Assembly: GCA_018816865.1 (NCBI GenBank)
Contig: JAHIUW010000010.1
Span: 1-50,707 of the forward strand
DNA: 50,707 nt
Direction: 5' to 3'
From: Pseudomonadota bacterium
GTDB lineage: Bacteria > Desulfobacterota > Desulfovibrionia > Desulfovibrionales > Desulfovibrionaceae
In this document: positions 40,991 to 49,184 of the stretch, piece after piece
Position numbering within the stretch: position 1 is the stretch's first letter
Layout: each line of letters opens with the position of its first letter
Translations under genes and position numbers: made by a program
The notes under the pieces: model-generated
What the model saw: the letters and a program-made list of their open reading frames with translations, nothing else
The model's database searches: none
What the model was told of the DNA's origin: nothing

Positions 40991-43315
40991 TTAGAACTTC
41001 ATGCGCAGGGTCCCGAAGAGGGAGTGGCTTTTGGTGTCCTCGCCGTATTCACCGGCATAGCCGAGGGTGAGAGAGGCGTCATTCCTGGCGAGTGTCACGC
41101 CGAGTTCGCTGCTGACCCGGCTGGAATCGGTCGCCGTGGTCACCTGCGCCGAGGTCGATGCGGCATCAAGGTGCTGGTCCACGGTGATGTCCGTATCACC
41201 CAGCGAGTGGACAAACCCTGCACCCACATAGGGGCTGATGAGCGCGCCCTGGCAGGAGAACTTTCGCTCGATGCGCAGACCGAGGCTGGCCTCGGCAAAG
41301 ATCTTGTCCAGATCGTCGTAGGACACCGCGTTGGCGGCTCCGCTCTCGCCGAAGCCCTCGCGATGCAGGGAAATGAGATTCAGCCCGGCTCGGGGAGCCA
41401 CGGTCCAAAACTCGGCGGGGTGCCAGTTGTACACGGCCAGCAGTTGGTTGGCGGTCAGCCACGATTCGTAGTCCGCTTTGGCGGTCTGGCCAAGGCCCGC
41501 GTTGCGCACGTATTCGTGGTCCGCGCAGGTCAGGCTCAGGGTGTTCGCAAAGGACCAGTCTCCGTACCTGTAGCCCGCGTACAGGCCCATGGTGTAGAAG
41601 GTCTGGTCTTCAGTGTCGTTTTTCACGAAATCCGAGCCCGTGAAATCGATGTCCGCAGCGCCGCCGCCGACCATGACGCCGAGCACCCAGTTCCCGAACT
41701 GGCGGTCGATGCCCGCTTCCAGCCCGACCATGTTGGATTCATACCCTTCGCCGCCGCTGTCGCTGCCGTCGCGGGTGGACGAGTTGTGCACCGGCTGCAG
41801 GTACACGCCCCAGACGGGTTGCTGCTCGCGCGGGGCAAGCAGGCCCTCCAACGAGCCGTTGGCTGCCACCATTATTGTCTTGCTGTCCACGCTTTCCTGA
41901 ACGTTCGAGCCGCCCGCCAGCAGGGACAGGCTGCGCGCCTGGGACACACCTGCAAAGGCCTGGGCCGATGCCAGCGAGGCCACGGCGCCCAGCGACGCCC
42001 CGTCGTCCTGTGGGCTGAAGCTGGCCGTGGCGTAGCTGGTGCCTCCGCTATACGAGGATTGCACGGTGAAATTGGGGTTGTACGAGGTCAGAGCCATCGC
42101 GCTGGCGCTGCTGACAATGGCCGAGCTCGTGTTCAGACCCGCGGCCGCGACGTCCACGGCGATGCCGCCGCTCACGGACGATGCGCCCGAAACATCCAGT
42201 GGGGCCGTGGCTTGGCCCTGGGCCTGCACCACAAGGGTACCGCCGGACACGGCAAGGGCGTTGGTCACGGTCAGCGAAGCGCCCGAGGAGAGATACAGCA
42301 CCCCGCCACTGACCACCGCGTCGGCCACATTCAGCGTACCGCCCGAGGAAAGGTTCATCGTGCCGTTGTTGACGATCAGGTCGGTCACGATCGCGTTGGT
42401 GCCGGAATTCAGGGTCCAGGTTCCGGAGCCGCTTTTTTCGACGATGGCCCATCCGGCAACCCCTGGGAAAGCGAAGCCCTGGGTGAGATTGAAGTCCATG
42501 TCCGTTGCGGCCGTGACATAGAGGTTGCTGGCGGTGCCGGAGTTGTCGGAATAGACGTCGCCGGAAAGGATTTTTGTAGCCGAGCCCAGGTACACGGTGC
42601 CGCCACTTAAGGTGTGAATGGCACGGGCTGTTCCGGACGTGCTTGTGGCACAGATGGTGCCATAGTTGTAAAGAGTGTTCCCACCGATTTTTATCCCATA
42701 GGCGGAACCGGAAGAGCTTGAGGCGGATATGGTACCCGTGTTGGTGACGGTGCCTGAGGCAAATACCCCATAGGCGTCTCCGGATATGCTTGAAGCGGAA
42801 ATGGTACCGGAGTTTGAGAGAGACACGGGCTGCACAGAGGGATTGGTGGTGGTGATGTCGACCCCTGTGACACCCCCGGATATGCTTGAGGCGGATATGG
42901 CGCCCGTGTTGGTCACCGATCCTACGATCAAATAGATCCCCTTGCTATTTTTGGCGATGCTTGAGGCCGAGATGGTTCCGCTGTTGATAATGGTCGAAGT
43001 TGTACCCTGCACTCCGGAGGCCCACTTGAACTGGTCAAAGGGGTCCGTTGGGTCAAGGACTGTGTCTTTGTTTGTGGCTGTAATGGCGCCCTCGTTGGTC
43101 AGGGTGCTCGCGCTAACGCTAACGCCGATAATCGTTTCATCGGTACCTTCCGAGGAAATGGTTTGCCCTGCCTCGACGGTATGTTCAACATTATTCAGGC
43201 TCAGCCCGGCTCCCGCCCGAGCCGGAGAGAATGCCGACATGGCCAGCAGCATGAACAGCGCGAGCGAGAGTGTGCGGATGGAACGGGACGCGAAAAGGCG
43301 ATGGATCAACAACAC
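40991..43315 (-). CDS. Autotransporter (type Va) with Ser/Thr repeat passenger
   Basis: A 774-residue autotransporter. A long basic signal peptide (MLLIHRLFASRSIRTLSLALF.., cleavage after ARAG) is followed by a passenger with at least four imperfect repeats of NSGTISASSISG / VTNTGTISASSSSG (about 110-235), then mixed beta strands, and a C-terminal beta-barrel domain (about 500-774: WGVYLQPVHN, YAGYRYGDWSF, GLRIERKFS, LFGTLRMKF). The last residue is Phe, as usual for barrel insertion. The start is GTG at 43315-43313 with AAGGAG six bases upstream. The passenger's low complexity suggests adhesion. It is expressed away from the cooA leader region. Confidence 0.92.
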   Translation of the reverse strand: MLLIHRLFASRSIRTLSLALFMLLAMSAFSPARAGAGLSLNNVEHTVEAGQTISSEGTDETIIGVSVSASTLTNEGAITATNKDTVLDPTDPFDQFKWASGVQGTTSTIINSGTISASSIAKNSKGIYLIVGSVTNTGAISASSISGGVTGVDITTTNPSVQPVSLSNSGTISASSISGDAYGVFASGTVTNTGTISASSSSGSAYGIKIGGNTLYNYGTICATSTSGTARAIHTLSGGTVYLGSATKILSGDVYSDNSGTASNLYVTAATDMDFNLTQGFAFPGVAGWAIVEKSGSGTWTLNSGTNAIVTDLIVNNGTMNLSSGGTLNVADAVVSGGVLYLSSGASLTVTNALAVSGGTLVVQAQGQATAPLDVSGASSVSGGIAVDVAAAGLNTSSAIVSSASAMALTSYNPNFTVQSSYSGGTSYATASFSPQDDGASLGAVASLASAQAFAGVSQARSLSLLAGGSNVQESVDSKTIMVAANGSLEGLLAPREQQPVWGVYLQPVHNSSTRDGSDSGGEGYESNMVGLEAGIDRQFGNWVLGVMVGGGAADIDFTGSDFVKNDTEDQTFYTMGLYAGYRYGDWSFANTLSLTCADHEYVRNAGLGQTAKADYESWLTANQLLAVYNWHPAEFWTVAPRAGLNLISLHREGFGESGAANAVSYDDLDKIFAEASLGLRIERKFSCQGALISPYVGAGFVHSLGDTDITVDQHLDAASTSAQVTTATDSSRVSSELGVTLARNDASLTLGYAGEYGEDTKSHSLFGTLRMKF

Positions 43316-43773
43316 GGGAATCTCCTTGTATGATCACCCGTACCGATACAGCCCATTGGTACGGACGAATTTTTAGCTTCCCCGAAAAAGCGACCAGCTC
43401 CAACGGGTTGTTTTTTCGAGCGATGTACTGGTAAAGGCAAAAGATACCCGTCTGTACGCGATTCGTTTTTCGCGAGCACTATCACCATGGGTGATAGTGC
43501 GTATGAAAAATGCATTATCTAAGTAAGTTAACTGATGAAATTAATAACTTGCAGGCCCGCGAGCCTCGATCCCCTGGCGAAAACACGCCGCCACGCACAG
43601 CGTGATCCATGAAGCGGTCTGAGGGGGATGGGGCCAGCCCAACACCGCCCCGGATGCCGGGGAGTGGGGCGGGCCAGGGGGTGGCCGATACAGGCTTGTG
43701 AAACCCCGCGCCCAAGGGGCCGGGGGCTTTCGCTCCTCCCCCACTGCGTGTATGGGAGAAGGAGGAGACCAGC
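43316..43773. other. Divergent region between autotransporter and cooA, with GC-rich leader
   Basis: 458 nt between divergent genes. Near the autotransporter it has an imperfect stem CCGTACC/GGTACGG (43338-43364). From about 43540 to 43750 it is extremely GC-rich with GGGGGCTTTCGCTCCTCCCCC and other stems, suggesting a structured cooA leader. I compared it with cobalamin and molybdenum-cofactor motifs and saw no fit. No CooA box was found here. Confidence 0.4.
43476..43500. promoter_or_regulatory. Perfect palindrome, candidate operator
   Basis: GCACTATCACC and GGTGATAGTGC form an 11-bp perfect inverted repeat around ATG. It lies 161 nt upstream of the autotransporter start and 274 nt upstream of cooA. 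The shape is that of a dimeric repressor site. No matching regulator is identified; it does not fit the CooA box. Confidence 0.55.
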
Positions 43774-44442
43774 ATGGGTATGAAATTCCTTGAGGAAAAT
43801 CTCCTCCATTATCTCCGGCGTCCCGAATTCGCGGAATTGCGCACGGCCTTTCACACCCGGACCTTTGCCAAGGGCAGTCTGATCTATAGCCCGGATGAAA
43901 AGGACAACCTGGTGTTCATCGTCTCCTCCGGGCGGGTGCGCGTCTATCTGGCCTATGGCGACAAGGAATTCACCCTGGGTATCCTGGGCACGGGCGATAT
44001 CTACAGCTCGCACACCGAGACCTTTGTCCAGGCCCTGGACGACGTCGAACTGCAGGTCATCGACGTCAAGGCCTTTCGGCGGCGCATGGTGGGCGACCCC
44101 GAGGTCACCAAGGCCATGGTGCGCGTACTGGGCAACATCTTGAAGGCCTCTTTCGCCATCATCGACGGCCTGGTGTTCAAGGACGCCAACTGCCGGCTCA
44201 TCGCCTTGCTGGTCACCGAGGCCCGCCGCCATGGGATCAGCGAACCGGACGGCGTGCGCGTGGACATCGACCTGCCCGTGGAGCAGGTGGCCCGCCTGTT
44301 GGGCGCCACGCGCCAGACCGTTTCCACCCTGCTGAACGAACTCGTACGTGCCGGGCTGATCCGCAAGGTCGCCCGGGGCCAGTATCTGATTCCCGACGTC
44401 GAGGCCCTGGATGCCTCGGCCGATGGCCTTTCCTGCCGCTGA
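43774..44442 (+). CDS. cooA: CooA-like CO-sensing Crp/Fnr regulator
   Basis: A 222-residue Crp/Fnr-family protein. The effector domain (1-130) carries GDIYSSHTETF at 75-85; the heme-ligand histidine of CooA corresponds to His80, but the preceding redox-switch cysteine (Cys75 in Rhodospirillum CooA) is Ser78 here. The C-terminal winged helix VEQVARLLGATRQTVSTLLNELV matches CooA. CO binding to heme should switch it on for cooS. The N-terminus is MGM, so the usual Pro2 ligand is absent, and another N-terminal ligand must serve. GGAGG nine bases upstream supports the start. It directly precedes the CooA box and cooS. Confidence 0.88.
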   Translation: MGMKFLEENLLHYLRRPEFAELRTAFHTRTFAKGSLIYSPDEKDNLVFIVSSGRVRVYLAYGDKEFTLGILGTGDIYSSHTETFVQALDDVELQVIDVKAFRRRMVGDPEVTKAMVRVLGNILKASFAIIDGLVFKDANCRLIALLVTEARRHGISEPDGVRVDIDLPVEQVARLLGATRQTVSTLLNELVRAGLIRKVARGQYLIPDVEALDASADGLSCR

Positions 44443-44481: not shown

Positions 44482-44497
44482 TGTCGGCTGGCCGACA
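44482..44497. promoter_or_regulatory. CooA-binding palindrome in front of cooS
   Basis: TGTCG-N6-CGACA, in fact a perfect TGTCGGC/GCCGACA inverted repeat, equal to the known CooA consensus. Its centre is about 116 nt before the cooS start codon, and a GATATG -10-like element lies at 44518-44523, which places the site near -41, as in CooA class II promoters. Confidence 0.85.
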
Positions 44498-44605
44498 GTC
44501 ACGGCTGTCCGGTTGGGGATATGCAGGGGGCAGACAGAAAAGCCTCGCTGGCGGATCGTCCGCTGCCGGGGAGGGAGTATTGACCTTCAGCAGGAGGCCG
44601 TGACC

Positions 44606-46506: not shown

Positions 46507-46533
46507 GGGCCGGGGGCGACCCCCGGCCCTTTT
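46507..46533 (+). terminator. Intra-operon hairpin between cooS and cooC
   Basis: GGGCCGGGGG (46507-46516) pairs with CCCCCGGCCC (46520-46529) around CGA and is followed by TTTTC. It starts 12 nt after the cooS stop and ends 15 nt before the cooC start. It should reduce cooC relative to cooS, as expected for an accessory protein, and may stabilise the cooS message. Confidence 0.7.
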
Positions 46534-47490: not shown

Positions 47491-48864
47491 TCAGAGATAC
47501 GGGAAGAACTTTGTATCTTCATTGAGCATGTGATTCCGTACGACCTTGCAAATCAGAAACTCAAACAACTCTCCGATCGATACATCGCCGGAATGAAATC
47601 TGGAAACAACGTTTTGCATGCTTGTAACCAATCCCTTGTGAATTTCAGCGTGCCGGTCAGCGTCGAGATAGCCCGCAGTTCGAAAGATAGCCTCTTCGTC
47701 GTGGAAGTGCTCTGCCGTATGGCTGATGAGGTTCGCACACAGTCTCTCGACCTCCGCATTGGGTTGCCCTGTGATGATGGCGGCAAGCAAATCATTGGAG
47801 ATGGCGAAAAGGCTCCTGTGCTGGCTATCGATGAGCAGGTTGCCTGATTCCAATCCCTGGTCCCACTGAAGCCGCACAAAAGATTTACGTATCCGTTCCC
47901 GTGGTTCATCGCCGGCCGCACTTGATTCGACCACAGCCACAACCCGGTTCCGGCCGGCGTCTTTGGCTTTGTACAATGCGGCATCGGCTGTTTTCAGGCG
48001 GGATTCGATGGGCTCTCCGCCACCAAGGAAAGAAACCAGACCGATACTCACTGTCACACGGACAGGGCCTTTCTCGGTCTCAACCACAATCTCCTCGGCG
48101 CGGGCTCTGAGTCGCTCCGCCAATGTTTGGGCGGCCTCCGCATCCGTATTGAGCAACAAGGCCCCAAACTCCTCACCCCCCAAACGTCCAAAGATGTCGA
48201 ACTCCCTCAGGGCGTTGCTGCATCCTGTCGCAATGGAGATCAGCACCTGATCGCCAACATCGTGACCATAGGTGTCATTCACGCGCTTGAAATGATCAAT
48301 GTCGATCATCAATATGGATTGGGGCTCCCTAAAACGGTCTCCCCGAGTCATCTCGCGCGTGGCATGCTCCATAAAGTAGCGCCTGTTGGCAACCTGGGTC
48401 AGCGCGTCCTTCTGGGCGAGTTGGGCAAGCTCGTCCTCAAGCTGCTTCCTGCGAGTAATATCCTGTATTTGAGAGATGAAAAACAAGGGCTTATCATCGC
48501 TTTCCCAGACCAGGGAAACGCTCAGCAGTACGTTGATGAGACGCCCGTCCTTATGGAAATAACGCTTTTCCATCTGATACGAATCAATGGATCCGGCGAG
48601 CATTTGATTGACGTAAACAAGGTCCTCGTCAAGATCCTCAGGATAAGTAATATCCTGAAAGGTCTTGGACATCAGTTCCTGCGCCGAGTAGCCGAGCAAG
48701 TCGCATAGGGAGTTGTTCACTCTGAGCCAGGTCCCATCAGGGGCCACGAGAGCCATGCCAATGGCAGCATGGTCAAAGGCGTTGGAAAAGAGTCGTCCCT
48801 CTTGCTCTATCAGTTCTTCGCTGAGCCAGCTCGCCCTCTCTATTCCCTTGTTTTCTTTCGACAC
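47491..48864 (-). CDS. PAS-GGDEF-hemerythrin diguanylate cyclase
   Basis: A 457-residue protein. A PAS domain (about 20-140) leads to a GGDEF domain with active GGEEF (229-233) and the inhibitory I-site RxxD (Arg220-Asp223). A C-terminal bacteriohemerythrin domain keeps all seven di-iron ligands: His349, His386, Glu390, His405, His409, His445 and Asp450. It should make cyclic di-GMP in response to oxygen or redox state. The start is decided by AAGGAG seven bases before a GTG at 48864; ATGs further upstream (48957, 48897) have no ribosome-binding site. It converges with cooC. The anaerobe context suggests oxygen avoidance or biofilm control. Confidence 0.93.
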   Translation of the reverse strand: MSKENKGIERASWLSEELIEQEGRLFSNAFDHAAIGMALVAPDGTWLRVNNSLCDLLGYSAQELMSKTFQDITYPEDLDEDLVYVNQMLAGSIDSYQMEKRYFHKDGRLINVLLSVSLVWESDDKPLFFISQIQDITRRKQLEDELAQLAQKDALTQVANRRYFMEHATREMTRGDRFREPQSILMIDIDHFKRVNDTYGHDVGDQVLISIATGCSNALREFDIFGRLGGEEFGALLLNTDAEAAQTLAERLRARAEEIVVETEKGPVRVTVSIGLVSFLGGGEPIESRLKTADAALYKAKDAGRNRVVAVVESSAAGDEPRERIRKSFVRLQWDQGLESGNLLIDSQHRSLFAISNDLLAAIITGQPNAEVERLCANLISHTAEHFHDEEAIFRTAGYLDADRHAEIHKGLVTSMQNVVSRFHSGDVSIGELFEFLICKVVRNHMLNEDTKFFPYL

Positions 48865-49184
48865 CCTGGCTCCTTGCGTAGAGTAAATTGCTTTCATCTG
48901 CTGAGTGGCCACGTTCTTGCCTTGGATAACACCCCATGAGGTTGCACCGGCCAGCATGAACAGGCTTTCTGGAATGACAGTTTAAAGAATATTATCGTTA
49001 ATTTTGGTGGTTTGTCGACGGTCCAACAATTCAGGCGCAAATAAGCATCGCCGGATGCACAAGCACGGACAGCCAACGGAATGAGCAACTGATGATCCCT
49101 AATGGTTTTAATACTGTGGAAATTGGATTAATGTAAAAGTTGGAATCAGAATAATTTGGCAAGAACCAACTTCAGGAGCACCAC
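48865..49184. other. AT-rich intergenic region, no gene seen
   Basis: 320 nt between the divergent GGDEF gene and the Pmp3-like gene. From about 48980 to 49160 it is much more AT-rich than the rest (for example TTAAAGAATATTATCG and AATGTAAAAGTTGG) and should hold both promoters. I see no convincing -35/-10 pair, repeat or RNA. Confidence 0.5.

Follow-up and report, generated by a model that had tools for sequence, protein, structure and literature searches.

The closest described systems are the cooSC genes of Desulfovibrio vulgaris and D. desulfuricans G20, for which PMC545781 gives the CooA consensus TGTCGGCNNGCCGACA and, with its Table 10, the upstream sites TGTCGGCTAGCCGACA and TGTCaGCcAGCCGACA, respectively. 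The same source places an additional CooA site in D. vulgaris before a cooM-type hydrogenase operon, which is also preceded by a site for HcpR, another Desulfovibrio regulator of the CRP/FNR family to which CooA belongs (PMC545781). The CooA motif is also quoted as TGTC(A/G)N6(C/T)GACA in a passage of PMC5371261 that counts the cooA gene of Citrobacter among those without a significant response to CO. In R. rubrum, cooA follows the CO dehydrogenase (CODH) genes, as a passage of PMC4257681 describes, and a D. vulgaris cooA deletion has already been studied (Rajeev 2012, as mentioned in a passage of PMC4114195).

We analysed a 50,707-nucleotide stretch of DNA, referred to here as the window, in which a 163-bp gap separates cooA from cooS. 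The type of regulator, its target and the palindrome are as in the D. vulgaris and D. desulfuricans G20 cooSC systems outlined in PMC545781. The box in this gap, TGTCGGCTGGCCGACA, is one base away from the sequence that Table 10 of that report lists for D. vulgaris cooSC, agrees with the consensus at all 14 specified bases and also fits the looser motif of PMC5371261. Unlike in the R. rubrum arrangement of PMC4257681, cooA here lies upstream of cooS, with no cooF between them, and an operon comparable to the D. vulgaris cooM operon of PMC545781 was not recognised in the window genome. The window box is a further instance of the CooA-cooS system already described in related sulfate-reducing bacteria, and for the window alone the regulatory site is as expected. 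Coordinates are collected in Table 1.

Table 1. Features of the cooA-cooS region and of related loci; positions refer to the window unless a locus is named
Feature	Position	Strand	Basis or remark
Autotransporter gene, 774 aa, upstream of cooA	40991-43315	-	Pfam PF03797; unmatched in the sister species' syntenic stretch
cooA, 222 aa, CRP/FNR-type CO sensor	43774-44442	+	Solved-structure matches; Pfam cNMP_binding and HTH_Crp_2; residue tally
Predicted CooA box, TGTCGGCTGGCCGACA	44482-44497	+	Sequence; box kept in 43/43 tabulated cooA-cooS gaps
Candidate -10, TATGCA	44520-44525	+	Family position, not consensus strength
cooS, anaerobic CO dehydrogenase of the Ni type, 629 aa	44606-46495	+	TIGR01702, 688 bits (cut-off 478); 6b6v, 1e-293
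GC-rich hairpin then TTTT, between cooS and cooC	46507-46529	+	Terminator-like scan
cooC-like P-loop ATPase, 260 aa	46539-47321	+	Pfam CbiA and ArsA-type P-loop; cooC follows cooS in relatives
Stand-alone CODH-fragment genes	L090:5782-6402; L091:6169-6807; L092:5554-6204; L093:4658-5287		Four relatives

The sequence-only reading had reported a perfect TGTCG-N6-CGACA upstream of cooS, and this was borne out: the box is the sole perfect match to the motif in the whole window. Dinucleotide shuffles of the 163-bp gap produced a perfect match in 0 of 20,000 cases and a match with at most one mismatch in 0.31%. Over the whole window, seven matches with at most two mismatches were found against a shuffle mean of 24.9. 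The genome search that had been proposed as a check returned two perfect copies in 3.64 Mb (42 contigs); sites with at most one mismatch numbered 62 per strand against 107 for a reversed control. With no genome-wide excess, the short motif by itself carries no genome-wide signal.

The product of the adjacent cooA combines a sensor domain with a Crp-type helix-turn-helix, and its closest solved structures are all CooA (2fmy, 2.1e-53; 2hkx, 1.2e-52; 1ft9, 9.4e-37). Homology to these R. rubrum and Carboxydothermus hydrogenoformans proteins extends over the whole chain, with the heme-pocket histidine and the recognition helix aligned. This histidine, His80 in the window, aligns with His77 of R. 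rubrum CooA, the heme ligand. Of 86 loci with a CooA, a set in which some entries overlap at one place, all 86 have it. Among the 80 loci that extend over the recognition helix, all keep R180, Q181 and S184, and 77 keep T182. A single CooA was found in the genome. cooS is likewise the only full-length CODH found there, the other match at 1e-5 being partial (35%). Comparison of the window gene with that of the sister species gave a dN/dS of 0.09, a value at which cooS is judged to be under strong constraint. The cooC-like gene probably shares an operon with cooS, which would entail a common transcript, and the hairpin between the two genes might reduce cooC relative to cooS. By eye, a comparable stretch is present in the sister species.

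We sampled 149 genomes of the family, the window's own included. At E 1e-20, CooA gave 72 matches in 65 of them. Seventy of these places were taken in (those left out being G022 and the second match of G129); counted by hand, 55 are linked to cooS, four lie by a stand-alone CODH fragment and 11 by a cooM-type hydrogenase operon. The CooS search added a 56th locus linked to cooS (G135), with a partial cooA at a contig end. All 43 tabulated cooA-cooS gaps contain the box, 27 perfectly, 13 with one mismatch and three with two, whereas shuffling the same gaps gave on average 0.0 perfect matches, 0.19 with at most one mismatch and 3.03 with at most two (maximum 8). Where the order is cooS-cooC-cooA, the box precedes cooS in eight of eight loci, with 0-1 mismatch. 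It does so equally, with 0-1 mismatch, in the other linked loci L014 (perfect), L028, L042, L117 and L126; L014, L028 and L042, the last with a CooS only 41% identical, stand outside the 43-row table, and all three have the box. Together, the box precedes cooS and is kept in the orthologous gaps of 56 of 56 cooA-linked loci at no more than two mismatches in ten positions, and of 53 at no more than one.

At cooS loci without an adjacent cooA, by contrast, a box with at most one mismatch was found in 0 of 16, within 3.5-6.3 kb per locus and a further 4-5 kb upstream for seven of them; L114 and L119 in this set lie near a contig end and offer little upstream DNA. The closer half of the set (L109-L116) is about 65-68% identical, seven of its loci coming from genomes with no CooA match at 1e-20 and one being a second cooS; several of the more distant half (L118-L125) come from genomes with cooA elsewhere. 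Relaxing the threshold to two mismatches gave a match within 600 bp upstream in six of the 16, several of them, by eye, in a ferredoxin-like coding stretch. At the stricter threshold, 53/56 linked against 0/16 unlinked loci show that the box tracks cooA, not cooS. This co-occurrence shows that the box belongs with cooA rather than with cooS.

Alignment of the 43 promoters on the box revealed TGTC and GACA to be invariant, while the inner bases vary and, by eye, are often unpaired. Counting from the end of the box, A occupies position 2 in 42 promoters, T position 22 in 37 and A position 23 in 42, so that TA stands at 22-23 in 37 of 43; TANNNT begins at 22 in 27. In class II CRP-type promoters the site is centred near -41.5. 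Taking positions 22-27 to be the -10 hexamer, which would then span -12 to -7, puts the centre of the box at -41.5, the class II position. The cooS promoter of the sister species obeys this rule, with TATATT at 22-27. The window promoter is the sole one of the 43 without A at 2 and the sole one without A at 23. Its nearest TA, within the weak candidate TATGCA, stands at 23-24, one base further than the family rule, and it is in this register that the window departs in the comparison with D. vulgaris and D. desulfuricans G20. TATGCA would put the box centre at about -42.5, and GATATG (44518-44523), which had been proposed as a -10 placed for class II activation, at about -40.5. By family position, the window -10 would be better read as TATGCA than as GATATG. 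The class II spacing itself is supported for the family, but for the window, one base off, it would hold only approximately. At L105, a locus in a MAG labelled Desulfobulbaceae, TA is one base closer to the box than the rule, so variation by one base occurs elsewhere. The rule of a box followed by a -10 TA at 22-23 could be used to find CO-induced genes in the family.

We put at roughly 0.87 the probability that the palindrome is a CooA operator, at which CO-bound CooA activates cooS and probably cooC. This proposal builds on a box that is present and conserved, occurs together with cooA and keeps its distance to the -10, and on the residues for sensing and DNA recognition in CooA. Counting against it are the missing genome-wide excess of the motif, the two adenines absent from the window promoter with its weak -10, and the two-mismatch matches upstream of six of the 16 unlinked cooS loci. 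CO would bind the heme of CooA, whose gene adjoins the box upstream, and the CO-bound dimer would bind TGTCGGCTGGCCGACA. CooA would then recruit RNA polymerase to a class II promoter, with the box centred at about -41.5 in the family and, on a TATGCA -10, at about -42.5 in the window. cooS and probably cooC would be switched on, and CO dehydrogenase would be made when CO is present. A true CooA site could also stand before a cooS promoter that the off-register -10 has left weak or inactive, with CO induction lost or poor. The two missing adenines, a combination confined to the window among the 43, would fit such a promoter, but the box is perfect, cooS is strongly constrained and L105 has its TA shifted by one base as well, in the opposite direction; we judge this outcome improbable.

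Still less probable is that the palindrome is bound by a different CRP/FNR protein, such as an HcpR-like regulator encoded elsewhere in the genome. The genome does contain one further CRP/FNR-type match at E 0.001, located at C32:159160 and sharing 24% identity with CooA, and PMC545781 places sites for both HcpR and CooA before the D. vulgaris cooM operon. The Desulfovibrio HcpR consensus given in that report, however, is TTGTGAN6TCACAA, which misfits the TGTCG palindrome of the window. Another regulator would also leave the association with cooA to be explained, the box being present at 56 of 56 linked loci (at most two mismatches) and 0 of 16 unlinked ones (at most one). The symmetry of the box raises a further alternative, that it acts as an RNA hairpin, for example a cooA terminator, rather than an operator: the inverted repeat is 7 bp and lies 39 bp past the cooA stop. 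Yet the box is absent from the terminator-like scan listing, and it still precedes cooS in 8/8 loci where the order is cooS-cooC-cooA. Its distance to TA is fixed in 37/43 promoters, and the invariant TGTC and GACA enclose variable inner bases that by eye often fail to pair. We give the hairpin hardly any credence and retain the CooA operator as the preferred reading.

The box had been assigned to a CO-induced regulon. The cooS operon stands as a target, but no further convincing one was found among the matches listed, and the CooA regulon of the window genome appears to be one operon, cooS and probably cooC; weaker targets may exist. A second target upstream of the minus-strand PAS-GGDEF-hemerythrin gene at 47491-48957 was rejected: the match there, at 49013-49028 with one mismatch, alters a G that is invariant in 43/43 boxes, and the lack of any match to this gene at 1e-15 in the syntenic stretch of the sister species also counts against it. 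The other perfect copy in the genome, at C33:67686, falls within an ORF (L002), is absent from the sites of the sister species and was likewise set aside. The match at C5:59220 is kept in the sister species; its inner bases depart from those of a cooS-type box, and there is, by eye, overlap with a TTGACA-like element. A cooM-type hydrogenase was rejected as a second target: a CooL probe found only loci that we labelled, from subunit matches and sizes, Ech-like (C4) and complex-I-like (C32). No fitting box was found near these hydrogenase-like genes, the best at C4 (L106) having one mismatch about 6 kb away and C32 (L107) offering none better than two. TGTCAATAATCTGACA and TGTCAATTATCTGACA (L077:1501-1516 and L079:1501-1516) are kept between the window and sister species in the gap upstream of a sigma-54-type-activator-like ORF.

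Upstream of cooA, in the gap at 43316-43773, there is no match with at most two mismatches, in agreement with the sequence-only reading that autoregulation of cooA is not suggested in the window. The genus was compared through the window species and its sister species G002. In the sister (L089), cooA itself is preceded by a perfect box, TGTCGGCTAGCCGACA, which starts 82 bp before the gene and has the sequence of the D. vulgaris cooSC site, so the inference of no autoregulation stops short of the genus. This box suggests that cooA may be autoregulated in the sister species. The autotransporter gene of the window is unmatched in the sister's syntenic 14 kb, and similarity between the two species starts just downstream of the sister's box. 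Because similarity begins past that box, its loss in the window lineage by rearrangement is plausible; a gain in the sister would be the alternative. None of the other family loci examined has a perfect box in the 300 bp before cooA. In L066 a one-mismatch match lies at -116 from cooA, and L069 and L070 each contain two perfect matches, located about 570-580 bp before the gene. cooA's own box can thus differ between sister species.

In four relatives (G090, G104, G120 and G057) a box beside cooA, with 1-2 mismatches, precedes a gene for a 207-217-aa protein related to the C-terminal portion of CODH. In two of the four proteins Pfam Prismane scores above cut-off, and in a third just below it. 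In all four, other residues replace three conserved cysteines, presumably cluster ligands, within the part of CODH that aligns. No full cooS was found at E 1e-100 in these genomes. For this mini-CooS, dN/dS was 0.40 in the G120/G057 pair and saturated in the other pair, against 0.09 for cooS between the window and sister species. We tentatively raise the rather doubtful possibility that the CooA box and its fixed-distance promoter form a portable module for responding to CO that does not lead to CO oxidation in every case, with mini-CooS as a non-catalytic CO-responsive protein.

CooA paralogues also lie beside cooM-type operons at 11 loci (L047, L049, L058, L066-L072 and L074), and a box with at most two mismatches is present at 10 of them. 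At seven of the 11 loci the sequence begins with CGTCG, not TGTCG, hinting at a shifted half-site preference of these paralogues. A wider contig search with CooA returned one locus, L105; transfer or mis-binning are possible origins of its cooA. The L105 CooA is 63% identical to that of the window, and a one-mismatch box (L105:2183-2198) lies before a cooS-like start.
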